A DNA stretch of 43,368 nt. Source: Candidatus Berkelbacteria bacterium (GTDB lineage Bacteria; Patescibacteriota; UBA1384; XYA2-FULL-43-10; CAINNR01). The position numbers and the translations under genes are program-made. This document shows positions 11,733 through 40,796 of the stretch, one piece after another. The notes beneath the pieces were generated by a model. It saw only the letters and a program-made list of their open reading frames with translations. It did no database searches and was not told where the DNA came from. The first letter of the stretch is position 1. Every line of letters begins with the position of its first letter. The DNA lies in NCBI GenBank assembly GCA_026397205.1, contig JAPLVH010000004.1:1-43368 (forward strand), given 5' to 3'.

Positions 11733-11770
11733 GTTACAAGATTTTAAATACGTATTTAAAATCTTGTAAC
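11733..11770. repeat. TACGTA-centred perfect palindrome, module 1 left
   Basis: A 38 bp perfect palindrome. The left half is GTTACAAGATTTTAAATAC and the right half its exact complement, with the centre TACGTA at 11749-11754. It lies 21 bases before the start of the Cas2-like/PaaX-like gene. It could be an operator, a 5' UTR hairpin or an element end. Confidence 0.95.
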
Positions 11771-11791
11771 AAATTTTAGCACCAACAAAGT

Positions 11792-12364
11792 ATGAAAAAA
11801 AGTACAAAAAGAAAAATTGTAAGAAAATTTGGTGAAATTACAATTGATCTTTTGGAATTAATTGCAAACATTCCGGTTGGGATTATTGGTGGTTTTGTTG
11901 ATCACCACGGTGTTTACAGTTATGTCCAAAGGGACGACAACATTCTCGATAATTTTTTCATTCGGCTTCGTTCCCTACAGGAACGAGGTTATATTGAAAT
12001 AAAAAGTGATGGTAAAAACAAAAGTGTTCGATTGACAAATAAGGGCAAAATAAAGGTTTTAGAAGGTAAAAAATCAAAAATCAGAGATGGAAAATGGCGA
12101 ATTTTATCATTTGACGTACCGCGCGAAAAAAATAAACTTCGCGATCAATTTCGTCGGTCGATCAAAAGAATCGGTTTTAAACAAGTGCAACAAAGTTTAT
12201 GGGTTTCGCCATTTATTAATGCTGATGAGATTGACTTAATAATAGACGAATTAAAAATTCGTGAATATGTTGCTTATTTTATTATTGACAAAACTGACAT
12301 CGAGGAGCATTTGGAAATCATGTTTGAAAAGGAATTTCGAACTCCTAAACCCGAGAGATGGTGA
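11792..12364 (+). CDS. HTH plus Cas2-like (PaaX-like) protein, copy 1
   Basis: 190 aa. The N-terminal 95 residues are basic and look like a winged helix (GEITIDLLELIANIPVGI, then LRSLQERGYIEIKSDGK and SVRLTNKGKIKVLEG). From residue 99 the protein has the ferredoxin-like Cas2/PaaX-central fold: WRILSFDVP, with the conserved Asp, KLRDQFRRSIKRIGFKQVQQS, WVSPF and YVAYFII. Such proteins are often annotated Cas2 in CPR genomes, but there is no cas1 or CRISPR array here, so a transcription factor or a nuclease-like mobile-element protein is more likely. Copy 2 (19123) is almost identical in the C-terminal domain but only about two-thirds identical in the N-terminal part. A palindrome lies on each side. 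Confidence 0.8.
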   Translation: MKKSTKRKIVRKFGEITIDLLELIANIPVGIIGGFVDHHGVYSYVQRDDNILDNFFIRLRSLQERGYIEIKSDGKNKSVRLTNKGKIKVLEGKKSKIRDGKWRILSFDVPREKNKLRDQFRRSIKRIGFKQVQQSLWVSPFINADEIDLIIDELKIREYVAYFIIDKTDIEEHLEIMFEKEFRTPKPERW

Positions 12365-12374
12365 TCTGATTGAT

Positions 12375-12430
12375 AAAAAATTTACTTAGGGATTTTCAAT
12401 ACGTATTGAAAATCCCTAAGTAAATTTTTT
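12375..12430. repeat. TACGTA-centred perfect palindrome, module 1 right
   Basis: A 56 bp perfect palindrome centred on TACGTA at 12400-12405. The inner arm reads GGGATTTTCAA before the centre and its complement after it, ending in A6/T6 tails. It starts ten bases after the stop of the Cas2-like gene and faces the convergent acetyltransferase/PBP genes, so it could also serve as a two-way terminator. Confidence 0.95.
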
Positions 12431-12459
12431 TGGAACGAAGCGCCGGCTGGTTAGCTCAT

Positions 12460-12926
12460 TCATTTCTTCAAATTGTCCAAAATTTCTTTTGCGTTGCCTT
12501 CAACATGAACCCATCCAGTAGGATTTAATCTAATTCTTTTGTACCAACTTAGAGGGTATTCCACACGACCGTCGGCGATTCCCTGAATGTCGACGATTTG
12601 ATATTTTTCAATCGCTATTTCGAGTATTTTAATAAATAATTTTTTTCGATGTTTTGTCTTTGGTGACGGTTGTCAACAAAAAGATCGGTTTCGTAAAGAT
12701 TGTTTCCCATCCAGCAAGGTTCGATTGAACCAACAAAACCGCCGACGATATTTTTGTCATCTTCAGCCAAAATGAAAATGTTTGGCTGTTTCTTAAATCG
12801 ATCTTCTAAATATTTTTTGGCGGAAGTAGCATCCCAATTTTCATCTGGGTTTGCGGCATTAAAAGAACTGGCGTAAATTTCGCCTAGCTTTGATAGATCA
12901 CCTTTATTTACGTTTCTAATTATCAT
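12460..12926 (-). pseudogene. GNAT-family acetyltransferase with a frameshift
   Basis: The first frame gives MIIRNVNKGDLSKLGEIYASSF and continues through ILAEDDKNIVGGFVGSIE and YETDLFVDNRHQRQNI, as in GNAT N-acetyltransferases, then stops at 12615. Continuing in the next frame from the seven-base A run (plus-strand T run at 12640-12646) gives KKLFIKILEIAIEKYQI and on to GRVEYPLSWYKRIRL and DNLKK with a stop at 12460. One added A (or two lost) would restore a protein of about 155 aa. The start ATGA overlaps the stop of the PBP gene. It is a recent pseudogene, a homopolymer sequencing error, or a slippage site. The substrate is unknown. Confidence 0.8.
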
Positions 12927-15733
12927 GTGCCGGTTTTGAATGAATAATCGGAGGAGGAAGTAAGCGAGCCGTTGTTGTCGACGGAAACGACGCGGAAGTG
13001 ATAAGTTGTGTTCGGTAAAAGCGAGGAAATTGCAATCGAGTGATTTGTCGCCAGGCCGTTATTTTTGTCCGACGAGCCGACGTAATCATTATAATTTCCG
13101 TGCGTTATTGTGTCGTAGAAAACTTGGCCAGTCGCGCCGGTGGAAGTTGTCCAAGAAATTGTCGCTGTCGTCGCGCCGATCCCTGAAGTGCCAACAGCGG
13201 AAATTGACAAATTATTTTGTAGGGCAAAGAAAGAAATCTCTGCGCTTGCCGTTTGCCCGTAATTGTCGGTTGCTTTGGCGCCCAGAACATGCCGGCCGGT
13301 CGAAAGCGCGTCAAAATTGTAATTCAAACTAAACGGCGAACTACTGGAAGAGCCGATGCCGGTGCCATCAATCGAATATTCAACTTTGGAAATATTGCCG
13401 GGATTATTCAGCGTTACGGAAATTGTTTGTGTGCCGGAAACGGTGTTATTTTCCCCAGGATAATTGAAAGCGATTGTTGTTGCTGGAGCAATATTATTGA
13501 TGTCACAGCTTCCAGTTGGAGTCGGATTATAAAGCCCAGCGCCGATTGCCCAGTCGCGAACCGGTCCTTCCCAAAGTGGGTTGGTCGGCATTTCTGAATG
13601 AATAATTGAAAAAACTTTGGTTTCGGTCACCGAGTTCGGTGCGTTGTCCGGTGCCGGTAATCCGTTGGCGCGACAAACCCTAACAGGAACATTAACATCG
13701 TCGTGGTCGGTCGGCACTTGCCAGCTGGCAAAAATATCGGTTGTTGTTTCCTTTGAGTACTGCGTCGGAAGTTTATTTGACCACTTCTCAACGGTTACCG
13801 TTTGAATCCCAGCCGGTGCGACAAACTGCTCAACTGGTTTGCCGGCTGTTTCTGCCGCCATAAATTGATGAAAGATTGGCGCGGCAACAACAACGCCGTC
13901 AGCACCGGAGGACATCGGGTGATTGTCATCATTTCCGACCCAAACGCCGACAGCCAAAGACGGAGTGTAACCGAGCGTCCAGGCGTCGCGGAAGTCGGTT
14001 GTCGTTCCGGTCTTTGCTCCAACCGGTCGGTCGGCAAAATAAAGCGGTGTTCTTGTACCGAAAACCATCGCCCGGGAGTTATTATCTGACATGATATTTT
14101 GCAACTCATAGGCAATTTGCGGATCAACTGCCTGCTTGCCTTTGTCGTCGTCCGGTTTGTATTCGAAAATAGTTTTATTGCTCCTGTCAACGACTTTGAG
14201 CATCGTTTCAATGTCGTGATGATTTCCATTGTTGGCGAAAGTCGCAAAGCCGTTGGTGTGTTCTAAAAGCGAAACTTCGCCGACGCCAAGTCCAAGCGAT
14301 AACCCGTATCTAGACCTTTGGGTTAAACTAGAGATTCCCATGTCAGAGGCAGTGGTTAGGACATTATCAATTCCTGAAAGCGCCGTGGTTTTAACCGCCG
14401 GAATATTCAAGGAGTTATCCAATGCCAGCCGTGCCGTCACCGGACCATGAGATTTGCCATCGTAATTATGGGGAGTATAGCCGCCACCGAAATCGGTTGT
14501 GAAGTCATATAGAATTTTGCTTGGCGAAAAATCTTTCTGTTTATAGGCGGTGGCGTAAACATAGGGCTTAAAAGATGATCCCGGTTGGCGCAAAGCAGTC
14601 GCGACATTAAAATTACCCTGATTTTTAGTATCGAAGAAATCTCGGGAACCGACCATCGCCAGGACCTCACCGGCTTTCGGATCAATTGAAACCAGAGCGC
14701 CGTTTGAGCCACCGTATTTTTGAACTTTTGCCATACCATCATCAACCGCTTTTTCCGCCACCTTTTGGGCGTTGTAATCCAATGTTGTGTAAATAGACAA
14801 ACCCTCTTTTTCCACCGCTTCGGTGCCGAATTTTGCGTCGGCAAGTTCCAAAACATAAAGTGAAAAATGTGGCGCCAGGATTGACATTTTTCGTGGTTGA
14901 ACTGTTGTGCCGACAGTTGTCGCATCCTCCTTTTTCGCCGCATCGGCCTGATCCTTGGTGATATATTTCATGCCGACCATCTGGTCGAGGACATAATTTC
15001 GGCGGATAATCAGCCGGTCTGTGTGAAGACCATAAGGTGAATAGTAAGTCGGGGCTTGGGGAATCGCCGCCAATGTTGCCGCTTGGGCCAGATCCAGATC
15101 CTTGGCTGATTTATTGTAGTACATTTGTGCCGCCGCTTCGACACCGGCCGCCTGGCCGCCATAGGGAATTTCATTCAAATACATGGTTAAAATTTGATCT
15201 TTTGAATACATAAACTCGAGTTCGATTGACAGGATCACCTCCTTAATTTTTCGGCTGATCGTTCGGTTAGAATAGAGCAGGGCGTTTTTGACATACTGCT
15301 GAGTGATTGTCGAGCCGCCCTGAGTGCCGGAGCCGATGTGAAAAATATCGTGAAAAGCCGCCCGGGCGATTCCCTTAAAATTGATGCCGTAATTTTGGTA
15401 GAACGATTGATCTTCGGTTGCGACTGTCGCGTCCTTGATATTTTGCGGGATTTGATTTGATTCAACCAAAGTTCGTTTCAAGTCGCCGGTTTCGTAGAGC
15501 AGAGTTCCGTTTCGATCAAATATTTTTGTTGATTGTGATGGTTGAGTGGCGGCGATTTTTGCCGGTGTCGGCAGATCCTTGGCATACCAAGCAAAAAGCA
15601 GTGCGGTAACAAAAACGAAGCCGAGAGCAATGTAGGCCAAAACTCGGATGATTTTCTTTTTATTCCACTTTTTCAAATTCTTTCGGCGCAATGTCTGTTT
15701 CAGATTGACCGGATTTAGGAAGCCAAGTTTCAT
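12923..15733 (-). CDS. Bifunctional class A penicillin-binding protein with C-terminal Ig-like and FN3 domains
   Basis: Polymerises and crosslinks peptidoglycan outside the membrane. Residues 29-50 are the membrane anchor. The GT51 transglycosylase follows, with catalytic Glu107 in ATEDQSFY and GSGTQGGSTITQQYVKN at 136-150. The transpeptidase has SSFK (386-389), SLN (441-443) and KTGTT (574-578). After about residue 755 come an Ig-like part (YPGENNTVSGTQTISVTL) and a fibronectin type III domain (TTATISWTT... TTYHFRVVSVDNNG), probably for wall or surface contact. At 936 aa it is long because of these domains. AAGGAT precedes the ATG. The GNAT frame overlaps its stop by four bases. Confidence 0.93.
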   Translation of the reverse strand: MKLGFLNPVNLKQTLRRKNLKKWNKKKIIRVLAYIALGFVFVTALLFAWYAKDLPTPAKIAATQPSQSTKIFDRNGTLLYETGDLKRTLVESNQIPQNIKDATVATEDQSFYQNYGINFKGIARAAFHDIFHIGSGTQGGSTITQQYVKNALLYSNRTISRKIKEVILSIELEFMYSKDQILTMYLNEIPYGGQAAGVEAAAQMYYNKSAKDLDLAQAATLAAIPQAPTYYSPYGLHTDRLIIRRNYVLDQMVGMKYITKDQADAAKKEDATTVGTTVQPRKMSILAPHFSLYVLELADAKFGTEAVEKEGLSIYTTLDYNAQKVAEKAVDDGMAKVQKYGGSNGALVSIDPKAGEVLAMVGSRDFFDTKNQGNFNVATALRQPGSSFKPYVYATAYKQKDFSPSKILYDFTTDFGGGYTPHNYDGKSHGPVTARLALDNSLNIPAVKTTALSGIDNVLTTASDMGISSLTQRSRYGLSLGLGVGEVSLLEHTNGFATFANNGNHHDIETMLKVVDRSNKTIFEYKPDDDKGKQAVDPQIAYELQNIMSDNNSRAMVFGTRTPLYFADRPVGAKTGTTTDFRDAWTLGYTPSLAVGVWVGNDDNHPMSSGADGVVVAAPIFHQFMAAETAGKPVEQFVAPAGIQTVTVEKWSNKLPTQYSKETTTDIFASWQVPTDHDDVNVPVRVCRANGLPAPDNAPNSVTETKVFSIIHSEMPTNPLWEGPVRDWAIGAGLYNPTPTGSCDINNIAPATTIAFNYPGENNTVSGTQTISVTLNNPGNISKVEYSIDGTGIGSSSSSPFSLNYNFDALSTGRHVLGAKATDNYGQTASAEISFFALQNNLSISAVGTSGIGATTATISWTTSTGATGQVFYDTITHGNYNDYVGSSDKNNGLATNHSIAISSLLPNTTYHFRVVSVDNNGSLTSSSDYSFKTGT

Positions 15734-15734
15734 A

Positions 15735-15855
15735 ACATATCCTTACCAATTTACGAATAAATCTAAAATCGAAATTACTAATAAGAAATGCATTTTTAGA
15801 TTCGTTTTATTCGTAATTTCGTTCTTGGTGTTATCGGTAAATTAGTAAGGTCTTA
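15735..15855. repeat. AT-rich inverted-repeat element between PBP and tyrS
   Basis: CCTTACCAATTTACGAATAA near 15737 is mirrored by a near complement ending at 15853, with an inner pair around ACGAAATTAC. The same end sequence (CCTTACCAATTTA, then ACGAAATTACCAATAAATC) recurs in reverse orientation at about 20575-20650. Confidence 0.6.
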
Positions 15856-15986
15856 TTTACATTGTAGAACTTTTGAAATATGATGTAAATATAAATAAGT
15901 CAAAAATCAAAATTCAAAAGTCAAAAGTGAAAACAGGGGACGAGAAAAAGTTTTATTCAAATTTAAAATATTATCAAGAGGTGAAG

Positions 15987-17186
15987 ATGAACAAAGTAAA
16001 AATTCAAGAAGTTTTAAGTCGATCAATTGACACGATTTATCCCAGCCGACAGGATTTGGAGAAACTTTTGGAGTCGGGAAAGAAATTGCGGATTTATATG
16101 GGAATTGATCCGACGGCAACTTATGTTCATCTCGGCCACGCGACCAATTACATTATTTTAAAAAGATTTCATGAACTTGGTCACAAAATAATTGTTGTCG
16201 TCGGTGATTTTACCGCCATGATTGGCGATCCGAGTGATAAAAAATCGTTTCGAAAACGGTTGACAAAAAAAGAAGTCGCCGAGAATTTGAAAACCTACAA
16301 AGATCAAATCGGCAAAATTCTTGATTTCTCCGACAAGAAAAATCCGATCGAATTCCGCTTCAATTCACAATGGTTGTCAAAACTGAAATTCGAAGATATT
16401 ATCAACATTGCATCTCATTTTACTGTCCAGCAAATGATCGAACGCGACACATTTGAAAAACGAATCAAGGAAAGGAAACCGCTTTTTGTCAGCGAATTTT
16501 TCTATCCGCTGATGCAAGGTTACGATTCGGTGGTACTGGACGCCGATGTTGAAGTTGGCGGAACCGATCAAACTTTCAATATGTTGGCTGGTCGCAGTTT
16601 GGTCAAATCATATTTGGACAAGGAAAAAATCGTTGTTTCAACAACACTTTTGGAAAATCCATTGACCGGCGAAAAATTGATGAGCAAATCTTTAGGGACT
16701 GGGATTGCTTTGAACGAAAAACCGAATGAAATGTTTGGTAAAGCTATGTCATTGCCGGACGAAGCAATCATTCAAGTTTTTATTGACTGCACTTATTTGT
16801 CGATGACGCAAATTGACCAATATCGTGGTGAAATGTCGGAGGGAAAAAATCCCAGGGATATCAAATTGATTTTGGCGCGGAAAATCGTCAGTCAATTTCA
16901 CGGTCAACACGAAGCGGAAAAAGCCGAAGCCAATTTTATCCAAATTTTTCAGAAGAAAGAGTTGCCGGATGAAATTCGGGAATTCAAACTTGACGGAACT
17001 TTTAATTTGCCGCAACTTTTGGTCGAAGTCGAGTCGGCCGATTCGATGTCTGATGCCCGGCGGTTGATAAAAGCCGGCGCGGTTGAAGTTGATGGCGCAA
17101 AAATCACCGATGTCAGCGCCAAAATTTCAACTCACAAAGACATGATTATTAAAGTTGGGAAGAGAAGATTTGCAAAGATAAAATGA
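15987..17186 (+). CDS. tyrS: Tyrosyl-tRNA synthetase
   Basis: Class I synthetase that charges tRNA-Tyr. The HIGH-type motif is HLGH at residues 48-51 after YMGIDPTATYV, and the KMSKS-type motif is LMSKSLG. The GDFTAMIGDPS and FYPLMQGYDSVVL segments form the tyrosine pocket. A C-terminal S4 RNA-binding domain is present (MSDARRLIKAGAVEVDGAKI). The frame is open back to 15873, but the upstream part is made of AAATCAAAATTC-type repeat. The ATG at 15987 has AGAGGTGAAG just before it, so 399 aa is the right length. Confidence 0.96.
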   Translation: MNKVKIQEVLSRSIDTIYPSRQDLEKLLESGKKLRIYMGIDPTATYVHLGHATNYIILKRFHELGHKIIVVVGDFTAMIGDPSDKKSFRKRLTKKEVAENLKTYKDQIGKILDFSDKKNPIEFRFNSQWLSKLKFEDIINIASHFTVQQMIERDTFEKRIKERKPLFVSEFFYPLMQGYDSVVLDADVEVGGTDQTFNMLAGRSLVKSYLDKEKIVVSTTLLENPLTGEKLMSKSLGTGIALNEKPNEMFGKAMSLPDEAIIQVFIDCTYLSMTQIDQYRGEMSEGKNPRDIKLILARKIVSQFHGQHEAEKAEANFIQIFQKKELPDEIREFKLDGTFNLPQLLVEVESADSMSDARRLIKAGAVEVDGAKITDVSAKISTHKDMIIKVGKRRFAKIK

Positions 17187-17290
17187 AGAGTTAAGATCTC
17201 AGAATTAAGAATTATGGAAGGGGATTTTGTTCTAAAAAAATTCTCAATTCTAAATTAAATTCTGAGATCTGAATTCTTAATTCTTAATTT
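17187..17290. repeat. AGATCTCAGAATTAAG-type inverted element before argS
   Basis: The left arm contains TTAAGATCTCAGAATTAAG and the right arm TTCTGAGATCTGAATTC with further AATTCTTAATTC. The core reads ATGGAAGGGGATTTT. A close relative lies at 40688-40796 before pilB. The element runs to the first possible argS start codons. Confidence 0.75.
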
Positions 17291-17300
17291 GCCTGGTGAG

Positions 17301-18995
17301 ATGCATGAGAAATTAAAACAAATTCTTATTAGTGCGATCGGAAAAGCTGGCTATAAAGTTCCGGCTGGTTTTGATTTTGGGCCTGCGGAAAACGAAAAGT
17401 TTGGGGATTTTTCGACCAACGCGGCGCTGATCATCGGCAAAAAAGCCGGCGAAACTCCGAAAGATGTTGCGGAAAAAATCGTCGCCAATATTAAAGATAA
17501 AAATATCAAAAACACCGAAATTGCCGGTCCGGGATTTATTAATTTTCACATGTGTCCGGAATTTTTTTGGCAAGAGTTATCAGAAATCCTAAAATCAGGA
17601 CAGGAATTTGGTCGTGGGGATAAGAATCATCGTCAAAAAATTCTCGTCGAATTCATCTCGGCCAATCCAACTGGCCCACTTCACATCGGCAATGCTCGCG
17701 GTGGCCCGATCGGTGAGACACTGTCAAATGTTTTGTCTTGGCTTGGACACGAGGTCGGTCGGGAATTTTATGTCAACGATGCTGGCAGCCAGATTGCTAA
17801 GTTTGGCAAAACCCTCGCTTACTATTATATAGTCAAAACCGACCCGAATTTTCGCTTTCCGGAGGACGGTTATCCCGGCGATTATCCGAAAGAAGTTTCC
17901 GAGGATATTCAAAAAGAACACGCGGTGGAAATCGAAGCGCTAAAAGATGAACTGTTGCCGGAGTTCTTCATTAAACACGGTCTAGAGTTGACGACGCGCC
18001 GAATCAAGGATGATATTGAACTTCTCGGCATCAAATTTGACAATTTCGTTTATGAGAGCGACTTTTTGTCGTCGGGAAAAAGCCAAGCGATTGTCAATCA
18101 ACTAAAAGAAATCGGAAAGACGACAGACAAAGAGGGTGCGGTTTGGTTTACCGCTGACGAATCCGCCAGCCGGCGGATTGACGGCGACGACAAAGAAAAT
18201 GTTTTGGTTCGTTCGGACGCCGAAAAGTCGTTGACCTATTTCGCTAGTGACATCGCTTATCACAAAGACAAGTTTGATCGCGACTTTAAAAAATTAATTG
18301 ACATCTGGGGACCGAATCATCACGGTCACATCGCCAGGTTGAAATCAGCAATGGCGGCGTTGGGATATGACCCGAAAAATTTGGAAATTATGCTTTACCA
18401 GAATGTCAAATTAAAAAAAGACGGCGAGGTCAAGCAGATGGGCAAGCGGCTGGGAAATTTTATTAACATTGCCGATCTGGTTAATAAACTCAAAGTTCCG
18501 GCAGATGTTTTCAAGTTTATGATCATTTCTCACTCGTCGTCATCAATTCTTGATTTTGATTTGGACCTAGCGCTAGAGCAGTCGGAAAAAAACCCGGTTT
18601 ACTATTTGCAATACGCTTACGCTCGAATTTGTAGTATTTTGCGCAAGGCCGACAAAAAAGTTGTTGAAGAGTTGGAAAAAATTGCCAGGGGAGAGGTGAG
18701 TGCTGGGATGTCAGAGTTTACCAATTTGACCGACAAAAAAGAGATTTATTTGATTCTTAAGCTAGCGGAATTTCCCGAGGTGCTGAAAAAAATCGAAAGC
18801 GATTTTCAAATTCAGGCGCTCCCCCATTTCGCGACAAAAATTGCCGGGGGATACCACGATTTTTATAGTTCAAATATTGTTTTGTCCGATGATAAAAAAC
18901 TCACCCGCTCTCGCCTTTTGTTAATTTTAGCAACTCGAAATGTTCTAAAAATTTGTTTGACTTTGATGGGGATCTCGGCACCGGAGAAAATGTAA
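17301..18995 (+). CDS. argS: Arginyl-tRNA synthetase
   Basis: Class I synthetase that charges tRNA-Arg. The N-terminal Add-1 domain has FGDFSTNAAL. The catalytic signature is SANPTGPLHIGNARGG, with HIGN as the HIGH motif. KQMGKRLGNFINI takes the place of KMSKR. The C-terminal anticodon-binding domain is DALR-like (YLQYAYARICSIL). The frame also allows TTG at 17289. I prefer the ATG at 17301 (564 aa) because it begins with the usual MHEKLKQIL, although GGTGAG abuts it without a spacer. The upstream repeat has displaced any normal SD. Confidence 0.94.
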   Translation: MHEKLKQILISAIGKAGYKVPAGFDFGPAENEKFGDFSTNAALIIGKKAGETPKDVAEKIVANIKDKNIKNTEIAGPGFINFHMCPEFFWQELSEILKSGQEFGRGDKNHRQKILVEFISANPTGPLHIGNARGGPIGETLSNVLSWLGHEVGREFYVNDAGSQIAKFGKTLAYYYIVKTDPNFRFPEDGYPGDYPKEVSEDIQKEHAVEIEALKDELLPEFFIKHGLELTTRRIKDDIELLGIKFDNFVYESDFLSSGKSQAIVNQLKEIGKTTDKEGAVWFTADESASRRIDGDDKENVLVRSDAEKSLTYFASDIAYHKDKFDRDFKKLIDIWGPNHHGHIARLKSAMAALGYDPKNLEIMLYQNVKLKKDGEVKQMGKRLGNFINIADLVNKLKVPADVFKFMIISHSSSSILDFDLDLALEQSEKNPVYYLQYAYARICSILRKADKKVVEELEKIARGEVSAGMSEFTNLTDKKEIYLILKLAEFPEVLKKIESDFQIQALPHFATKIAGGYHDFYSSNIVLSDDKKLTRSRLLLILATRNVLKICLTLMGISAPEKM

Positions 18996-19069
18996 CAGCG
19001 TCGAATGAGGCCGAGTTTTGTATCGGCGTGAACCGAATGAATTATATTCGCAGCACAAATATAAATTAA

Positions 19070-19105
19070 ACTGGGATTATTCAATACGTATTGAATATCT
19101 CCAGT
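19070..19105. repeat. TACGTA-centred palindrome, module 2 left
   Basis: 36 bp, centre TACGTA at 19085-19090. It is palindromic except for three adjacent positions in the outer arm (GAT where AGA would pair). The inner arm GTATTGAATATCTCCAGT is identical to the arm of the right-end palindrome. It lies 17 bases before the start of the second Cas2-like gene. Confidence 0.92.
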
Positions 19106-19122
19106 AAAGTTGGGTAAAAAGG

Positions 19123-19686
19123 ATGAAGAAAAAAACGAAACAAAAAATAAAAAGAAAGTTGGGAGAAATTTCGATCAATTTATTGGAGCTGATTGCCAAT
19201 GTTCCAGTCGCGATCGCTGGCGGTTTTTTGGATCCATACTCGGTATATCGAAGTGCGCCGAGAAACAGCAATATTCTGGATGATTTTTTTGATCGGCTTC
19301 GAACATTAAACGAAGGCGGATATATCGAAATTGTTAAAGACGGTAAACGTAAAAGTATTCGCTTAACCAATAAAGGCAAAATTAAATTGCTTGAAGGGAA
19401 AAAATCTGAGCAGACAGATGGTAAATGGCGAATTTTATCATTTGATGTCCCTAGGGCAAAGAATAAGCTTCGCGACCAATTTCGTCGTTCGATCAAGAGA
19501 ATCGGTTTCAAGCAAGTTCAGCAAAGTTTGTGGGTATCACCATTTATAAATGCCGACGAAATTGATTTAATAATCGATGAGCTAAAAATTAGAGAATATG
19601 TTGCGTATTTTATTATCGCTAAAACCGATATTGCCGAGCATTTGGAAGTGATGTTTGCCAATGAATTTCGAAATATCAATTTTTAA
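19123..19686 (+). CDS. HTH plus Cas2-like (PaaX-like) protein, copy 2
   Basis: 187 aa, paralogue of the protein at 11792. The N-terminal part (GEISINLLELIANVPVAI, then NEGGYIEIVKDGKRKSIRL) is the presumed winged helix and differs from copy 1 at about a third of positions. From WRILSFDVP on the two are nearly identical for some 65 residues, although many codons differ by synonymous changes. The start follows AAAAAGG closely. The conserved Asp of the Cas2 fold (SFD) is present. There is no cas1 or CRISPR nearby. I infer DNA binding to the flanking palindromes as regulator or recombinase-like factor; the biochemical role is unknown. Confidence 0.8.
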   Translation: MKKKTKQKIKRKLGEISINLLELIANVPVAIAGGFLDPYSVYRSAPRNSNILDDFFDRLRTLNEGGYIEIVKDGKRKSIRLTNKGKIKLLEGKKSEQTDGKWRILSFDVPRAKNKLRDQFRRSIKRIGFKQVQQSLWVSPFINADEIDLIIDELKIREYVAYFIIAKTDIAEHLEVMFANEFRNINF

Positions 19687-19724
19687 TCTTAGGTAATTGT
19701 AACAACTCGTCTTAAGAAAAATTT

Positions 19725-19760
19725 ACTGGAGATATTCAATACGTATTGAATATCTCCAGT
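19725..19760. repeat. TACGTA-centred perfect palindrome, module 2 right
   Basis: A 36 bp perfect palindrome, ACTGGAGATATTCAATAC followed by its complement, centre at 19740-19745. The inner flank AAATTTACT matches that of the right palindrome of module 1. It lies 38 bases after the stop codon. The next gene is on the same strand, so a simple convergent terminator role fits less well here. Confidence 0.95.
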
Positions 19761-19943
19761 TTATTATTTGTGACAAAATATTTGAAAAAGTATTTTCTGG
19801 AGCGGAGAATTTAATCACTAAAGAAAAACTTTCCCAGAAATACTTGACTACTACTACTACTATGTAAGACAGAAACTAGATTTGCAAATTTCTAATTTCT
19901 AATTACAAATGTCAAATAAGAAATTAATTAATTGAAAGGAAAA

Positions 19944-24262: not shown

Positions 24263-24916
24263 ATGCCAAGGCAACCACGATTGCTTCTTTCAAAAAGTTT
24301 TTATCACATCATGACTCGTGGAAATAATCGAAACGAGATTTTTAAGTCCCAAACGGACTATTTTTATTACTTGAAACTTCTTCGTCGTTTCAAGGACGAA
24401 CTTGATTTTGATCTCTATCACTACTGCTTGATGCCGAACCATGTCCATCTACTTATCCAAACGAAAAAATCAAATGATTTTTCCTTGTTCATGAAAAAAA
24501 TCAATCTGGCATATTTTCACCACTTTCGTCAGGAATACGGTTGGGTTGGACATTTTTGGCAGGATCGTTTCAAAAGTCAGCCGGTTGGCAAAGATAATTA
24601 TTTTATCCAGTGTGGAAAATATATTGAGCTAAATCCGGTGCGAAAAGGGCTGACAAAAAAGCCGGAAGAGTGGCGTTTTTCAAGCTATAATTTTTATGTT
24701 GATGGCGCTAAAAATAATTTGTTGACCGAAGATTTCTTGTATCGGGATATTGGCAAAAATACTGAGGAGAGAAAGAAAAAATATCGCGGAATGGTTATCA
24801 GTGAAATTGTTTTAGACGATTACAAGAAAAATGTTTGGGGATCTCCAAATCAAAGATACAACGAGAAGCACAAGGAAAATCAGTATTTTACCAGGCATAA
24901 TCGAGATAAAAGTTGA
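24263..24916 (+). CDS. REP-associated tyrosine transposase (Y1/HUH, RAYT)
   Basis: 217 aa, IS200-like single-strand DNA transposase of the TnpA-REP group. The N-terminus has FYHIMTRGNNRNEIF, the metal-binding HUH motif is HVH at 60-62 (MPNHVHLL), GHFWQDRFKS follows, and the probable catalytic Tyr is Tyr120 in KYIELNPVRKGL. C-terminal residues 190-217 are polar. RAYTs are usually domesticated single genes that move short hairpin repeats. The hairpin elements of this window are possible substrates, but that is inference. A TATAAT-like box precedes the ATG. Confidence 0.94.
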   Translation: MPRQPRLLLSKSFYHIMTRGNNRNEIFKSQTDYFYYLKLLRRFKDELDFDLYHYCLMPNHVHLLIQTKKSNDFSLFMKKINLAYFHHFRQEYGWVGHFWQDRFKSQPVGKDNYFIQCGKYIELNPVRKGLTKKPEEWRFSSYNFYVDGAKNNLLTEDFLYRDIGKNTEERKKKYRGMVISEIVLDDYKKNVWGSPNQRYNEKHKENQYFTRHNRDKS

Positions 24917-40688: not shown

Positions 40689-40796
40689 AAAATTAAGAAT
40701 TAAGATCTCAGAATTAAGAATTGTGGAAGTGGAATTTTAAGAATACTAAATTCTAAATTAGATTCTGAATTCTTAATTCTGAATTCATAATTCTAT
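40688..40796. repeat. AGATCTCAGAATTAAG-type inverted element before pilB
   Basis: The left arm contains AATTAAGATCTCAGAATTAAG-like units, the core GTGGAAGTGGAATTTT, and the right arm TTCTGAATTCTTAATTCTG. It is homologous to 17187-17290. It reaches to five bases before the GTG start. Confidence 0.75.

Follow-up and report, generated by a model that had tools for sequence, protein, structure and literature searches.

Insertion sequences of the IS200/IS605 type are about 0.7 kb long and carry one small gene, with palindromes near both ends and ends that are not mainly inverted. In REP/RAYT systems, or REPtrons, a gene persists slowly and partly by vertical descent between private palindromes, and lone related palindromes are found in intergenic regions, often near gene 3′ ends (PMC3733652). 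A Cas2-like ferredoxin domain is found in CRISPR Cas2 and also in the PaaX repressor (PF20803 and PF08223; structure 8a39), where it is joined to a winged helix. The repressor binds an inverted-repeat operator and is released from it by phenylacetyl-CoA. PaaX represses its own expression through inverted half-sites that stand far apart (PMC9493321), and the E. coli protein was reported to bind TGATTC-N27-GAATCA (PMC9493321). Here we describe a single-gene unit that resembles each of these systems in part and that is probably mobile.

We analysed a 43,368-nucleotide stretch of DNA from a Candidatus Berkelbacteria bacterium (contig JAPLVH010000004.1 of assembly GCA_026397205.1; hereafter the window) and found two such units, each with a single gene on the forward strand between palindromes that are assigned to neither strand. 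Unit 1 (positions 11733–12430, 698 bp) comprises a perfect left palindrome of 38 bp (GTTACAAGATTTTAAATACGTATTTAAAATCTTGTAAC, 11733–11770), a gene at 11792–12364 and a perfect right palindrome of 56 bp centred on TACGTA (12375–12430). Unit 2 (19070–19760, 691 bp) comprises a 36-bp left palindrome (ACTGGGATTATTCAATACGTATTGAATATCTCCAGT, 19070–19105), a gene at 19123–19686 and a perfect 36-bp right palindrome (ACTGGAGATATTCAATACGTATTGAATATCTCCAGT, 19725–19760). The original prediction, made from the letters of the window, of two units of nearly equal size with a gene between TACGTA palindromes was therefore borne out. All four palindromes are present and three are perfect, but the one to the left of the unit 2 gene is only 86% symmetric, with a perfect inner 20 bp. 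Allowing up to two mismatches, TTNAATACGTATTNAA occurs at four sites in the window against 0.57 expected, all of them exact and all at the unit palindromes. In the window's own genome (821,591 bases) there are only seven copies of the decamer AATACGTATT, four of which bracket the two genes, and none of its backwards control. Homology between the units stops 28–49 bp from the palindrome centres; in other paralogous unit pairs these limits were more variable. Other repeats lie nearby. Just beyond unit 2, at 19838–19868, is a promoter-like TTGACT(ACT)nTATG sequence in which a trinucleotide repeat separates the two hexamers. Similar copies at L010, L039 and L041 differ greatly in repeat number and lie upstream of a paralogous small-protein family (..GPSEEDLQIR..GEPEGR..); the sequence has the appearance of a phase-variable promoter. 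Two further places, 17172–17292 and 40696–40794, carry similar inverted repeats around AAGATCTCAGAATT and AATTCTTAATTCT, with arms about 50 bp apart; they are perhaps a small dispersed repeat.

The unit 1 gene encodes a truncated PaaX of 190 aa, with an N-terminal winged helix and the Cas2-like PaaX_M domain at the C-terminal end, and without PaaX_C; the unit 2 protein (187 aa) belongs to the same family and is 78–79% identical. PaaX_M (PF20803, ‘central Cas2-like domain’) matched both proteins at about 1e-19, and the cas2 model TIGR01573 gave them 23.3 and 21.4 bits, under its curated cut-off of 24.5. An AlphaFold2 model of the unit 2 protein had a mean pLDDT of 85.9, with the Cas2-like domain more certain than the winged helix, and in structure comparison its top PDB match was E. 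coli PaaX, followed by Cas2 of Cas1–Cas2 complexes, at modest TM-scores. PaaX_C was not found in any short form scanned, whereas the one long member scanned (L091) has it and the full PaaX architecture, so that long forms could serve as an internal control. The aspartate D108, at the metal-binding position of Cas2, was invariant among the 57 short forms compared, whereas only 7 of 19 long forms have it. This difference suggests, without proving it, that the short forms kept a nuclease-like function that their full-length relatives lost. Third codon positions had diverged far more than first and second positions in every pair compared (identities of 0.82, 0.87 and 0.51 at the three positions in the window pair), which places the unit gene under purifying selection acting on the protein. 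The unit proteins carried no recognised transposase or integrase signature, and those scanned matched only PaaX_M-type and winged-helix models and no Y1/HUH transposase domain. PADLOC returned only weak Cas2-like and winged-helix matches, and PHROGs nothing useful.

The units share with CRISPR Cas2 conserved aspartate, arginine and Q-x-S positions as well as the ferredoxin domain, but they differ in the winged-helix fusion, the sub-cut-off cas2 score and the lack of Cas1 and of an array. A search for Cas1 that detected it in 9 of 14 controls found no copy in the class (0 of 54 genomes). We therefore rejected a role in CRISPR adaptation, and the likeness of palindrome–gene–palindrome to repeat–spacer–repeat, which had been pointed out for the window, did not extend to membership in that system.

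We then asked how far the bracket extends among homologues. Short and long homologues together were patchily distributed, with 0–12 per genome in the class, where 37 of 54 genomes had at least one and the window's own genome had 9; across the phylum (Patescibacteria, or CPR), 126 of 381 sampled genomes had one. We scored each homologue by its two palindromes and their mutual similarity, with a threshold of 44; a null of mismatched pairs had a mean of 32.6, a 95% point of 44 and a 99% point of 49, and this null is raised because it was built from real palindromes. In the class, a matched pair was found at 61 of the 77 short homologues with enough flank, but at none of the 29 long homologues (232 aa or more; Fisher p 7e-15), and 50 of the 77 passed the stricter threshold of 49. 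Several of the short homologues below threshold have visible pairs with one side decayed (L040, L068 and L106). Among 17 fresh loci from distant members of the phylum, 12 reached 44, as did 1 of 42 neighbouring control ORFs. The bracket is restricted to the short protein form, and the prospect that homologues would mostly lack palindromes did not materialise for that form. The expected size near 700 bp also held, with a median of 657 bp between palindrome centres, and the matching right palindrome lies about 14 bp past the stop codon. What recurs, however, is the arrangement and not the TACGTA sequence, which is specific to the window pair; homologues have palindromes of their own. No homologue was found in the viral contigs and phages searched, and plasmids gave one weak match to a PaaX-family regulator. 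Two arrangements elsewhere in the window's own genome deserve mention. A CGATCG-centred unit appears to be split between the end of contig C16 (L172:1104–1463) and the start of contig C22 (L019:1–629), with a matching palindrome on each end, possibly as a result of an assembly break at the unit. On contig C8 (L020:2811–4181), three GCTCCAGC-type palindromes stand in a row, with a GrpB-family gene between the first two and a PaaX/Cas2-like gene between the last two, as if the palindromes were able to carry another gene.

The two palindromes of a unit match each other privately. Across the units, CGATCG was the most frequent centre (65 of 122), followed by CGTACG, CGGCCG, TGGCCA, GCTCCAGC and others; in the window's own genome, the paralogues are mostly flanked each by its own type, with CGATCG, TGGCCA, TGATCA-like and GCTCCAGC centres. 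The CGATCG core had been considered as the T. thermophilus PaaR site CNAACGNNCGTTNG, an idea that we dropped since PaaR is a TetR-family protein (PMC9493321). In genomes with at least three units, each left palindrome, in all 40 cases, was most similar to its partner on the right. Similarity between left and right palindromes was 30.3 within a unit versus 8.7 between units of one genome, in a set of 61 units picked by the joint score, which inflates absolute symmetry and left–right similarity. Within genomes, palindrome similarity tracked protein similarity (rho 0.53, 114 pairs). Two near-identical palindromes of 38 bp flank the gene of the unit at C8:35691, and the palindromes of the unit at C8:24295 differ from each other at several positions while each is perfectly symmetric. 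In the same 61 units, symmetry and left–right identity peaked at 1–4 bp and at about 12–18 bp from the centre and collapsed at 19 bp, which defines a palindromic site of 36–38 bp. The half-sites of TGATTC-N27-GAATCA fall about 14–19 bp from the centre and resemble the outer arms of the unit palindromes in spacing only. Together, the covariation of protein and palindrome and their private pairing are consistent with a protein that likely recognises its own palindrome.

An alternative is that the palindromes insulate the gene, as bidirectional terminators or as hairpins in RNA. Their stems are long, and there is some A/T enrichment alongside, with T at 0.39 after the right palindrome versus 0.29 in the background. 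RNA stems should favour G–U pairs, but mismatches read on the coding strand showed no excess of G–T over A–C (31:39 in left palindromes, 24:24 in right palindromes and 55 versus 63 in total), which suggests that the palindromes act as double-stranded DNA or as a DNA hairpin and not as RNA. Moreover, at least five T in the following eight positions were found after only 5 left and 11 right palindromes (n = 61), the centres are symmetric with zero loop, the left and right copies share a sequence peculiar to their unit, and ordinary looped hairpins occur separately in the same genomes. We thus regard this alternative as very unlikely, and the behaviour as plain terminators that had been set against the mobile unit was not seen. 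Rfam matches to miRNAs, all below threshold, were discarded as mere reflections of a perfect stem.

Copy number varies among genomes, and genomic slots that are occupied in some are empty in others. radA and PBP1A are adjacent across the order. The slot between them is filled in the window's own genome by unit 1, on the forward strand, and in G001 by a different unit on the opposite strand, whereas in G002, G006, G007 and G009 it is empty, without a palindrome and spans a few tens of base pairs or less (about 20 bp in G002). Similarly, almost nothing separates trxB from rarA in G002 and G003, whereas G001, a member of the same genus as G002, has a unit and one other gene between them. The empty sites foreseen for close strains were thus found, in comparisons at the level of the genus or more distant; the genomes compared, one per species, contained no clean pair of insertion and empty site within one strain. 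Presence and absence at orthologous sites, as in insertion sequences, were observed at both slots. In G001, the unit at trxB–rarA has intact rarA on one side and an orphan 5′ fragment of it on the other; at L079, an orphan 5′ end of rnhA lies across the unit from intact rnhA; and in G001, the duplicated 3′ end of a gene neighbouring argS lies across a unit from the intact copy. Long local duplications of this kind accompany only 3–4 of the 61 units, without abutting the palindromes. Six units of G001 form a single clade in a quick tree (99% SH-aLRT support). No near-identical gene copies were found within one genome, the closest pair being 79% identical, so that movement does not appear to be recent. 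An apparently orthologous unit in G004 and G005 (protein 93% and DNA 77% identical) has compensated differences in its palindromes, and some units therefore seem to have been inherited vertically for long times. On these comparisons, we favour a unit that is mobile.

One feature that argues against mobility is the orientation of the palindromes: among orientable pairs, 12 are direct and 3 inverted, unlike the ends of classical transposons. The excess of direct pairs would suit a model in which the palindrome is the target, the gene homing into a pre-existing palindrome and duplicating it as a CRISPR repeat is duplicated, with a lone palindrome being an empty target. Lone copies on contigs C14 and C24 of the window's own genome, which are identical to the right palindrome of unit 2 and have right flanks resembling its own, would fit this model as well. 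The empty radA–PBP1A and trxB–rarA slots of relatives have no palindrome, however, the class has no Cas1 and the three inverted pairs are clearly inverted, and we consider the model highly improbable.

Long palindromes also occur outside known units. In the window's own genome, there were 16 per 327 kb sampled, nearly all intergenic and several between convergent genes; elsewhere we counted 3 per 313 kb in G001, 1 per 241 kb in G002 and 7 per 387 kb in G009. Shuffled sequence of the window's own genome (143 kb) yielded no palindrome of comparable arm length. The lone palindromes could be remnants of units or palindromes that moved independently. Part of their spread may stem from ordinary duplication, because some of them have paralogous right flanks and paralogous genes downstream. 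On contigs C12, C14 and C15 of the same genome, four CTCCCTCACTTYGATACRCTAGYGTATCRAAGTGAGGGAG-like palindromes (L183:7894, L184:10785, L185:1 and L185:11203) have no known PaaX/Cas2-like gene adjoining them. The queA coding sequence on contig C8 contains an in-frame palindrome of 56 bp (L021:3286–3341), which recalls palindromic elements inserted into genes.

These lone palindromes also bear on a different explanation, that the proteins are lineage-specific transcription factors. A truncated PaaX would repress itself through matching upstream and downstream operators by DNA looping, and lone palindromes would be operators of its regulon. This explanation is in line with the autorepression by PaaX through widely spaced inverted half-sites (PMC9493321), with the peaks of palindrome symmetry at distances similar to those half-sites, with purifying selection and with vertical inheritance in some pairs. 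However, a repressor is not expected to have a matching operator about 14 bp after the stop codon, nor slots that are empty or differently occupied among relatives; several lone palindromes lie between convergent genes and not before promoters; and genomes below 1.3 Mb have as many as 12 homologues with a private palindrome apiece. The options originally offered for the window were a mobile unit, a toxin-like or regulatory cassette and an autoregulator with operators at both ends. We favour the mobile unit, found no evidence for a toxin and judge the autoregulator unlikely, although it is a rival to be reckoned with.

Relative to PaaX repressors, the units lack PaaX_C, are often multicopy and are bracketed, and they keep the aspartate throughout; their long relatives in the class are unbracketed. 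As in REPtrons, the window's own genome has both a palindrome family belonging to the gene and dispersed lone copies. Unlike REPtrons, however, the units encode a PaaX/Cas2-like protein in place of a Y1/HUH transposase, the symmetry of their palindromes runs right to the centre, no GTAG tag was noted, and lone copies are few outside the window's own genome and rare in G001. The units share their size, single small gene and palindromic, not mainly inverted ends with IS200/IS605, but they have no Y1 transposase and their palindromes are loopless. In its workings the unit comes closest to REPtrons and IS200-type elements, yet it belongs to neither, because the defining Y1 transposase is missing. 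At 24263–24916 the window encodes a REP-associated tyrosine transposase (Y1_Tnp), with inverted ends AGGGGACGGTTCTCTTTTGA and TCAAAAGAGAACCGTCCCCT a few tens of base pairs outside the gene; this is a separate single-gene element. Mobilisation of the units by such a resident transposase is unlikely, as units are present in genomes without any Y1_Tnp match (G025, G046 and G052) and the ends of the window's Y1 gene are unrelated.

Taken together, we consider it probable that the unit is a minimal, self-contained and mobile single-gene DNA element whose protein recognises the palindromes at its own ends. In the mechanism that we propose, a protein dimer would bind the palindrome as double-stranded DNA, its winged helices contacting the outer inverted arms 12–18 bp from the centre, and would make another contact at the symmetric core. 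In this way the protein would both repress its own promoter and mark the ends of the element. We are less sure that the unit protein drives excision and insertion, or copying, perhaps through the invariant D108, and catalysis by the Cas2-like domain is speculative. Insertion would duplicate some tens of base pairs of the target, and lone palindromes would arise where the gene was lost or where the palindrome moved alone, as REPs do in REP/RAYT systems. More tentatively, the units might form a new class of mobile element: autonomous, about 0.7 kb long and without a classical transposase, in which a winged-helix/Cas2-like nuclease would recognise private symmetric ends and move the unit without Cas1. 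The novelty lies in the combination of private matched palindromes, a PaaX/Cas2-like protein and no transposase. We found no description of such units in the open-access literature searched. The case for novelty would weaken if the autoregulator explanation were right.

If the proposed reading is true, a Cas2-type protein would act in DNA mobility outside CRISPR, and action of the Cas2-like domain on the palindromes would bear on the roles of Cas2-type proteins outside CRISPR. Sequence alone makes it easy to label the homologues ‘Cas2-like’ or ‘PaaX family’, and the bracket offers them a testable function. A gene with a private palindrome pair is a plain signature that can be searched for, and it can be tested with one protein and one oligonucleotide, while the many natural protein–palindrome pairs provide a ready data set on DNA recognition. 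The phylum is huge and mostly uncultured, and the mobile content of its small genomes is little known. The protein family, short and long forms together, occurs in about one-third of the species sampled, with up to a dozen copies in genomes smaller than 1.3 Mb.
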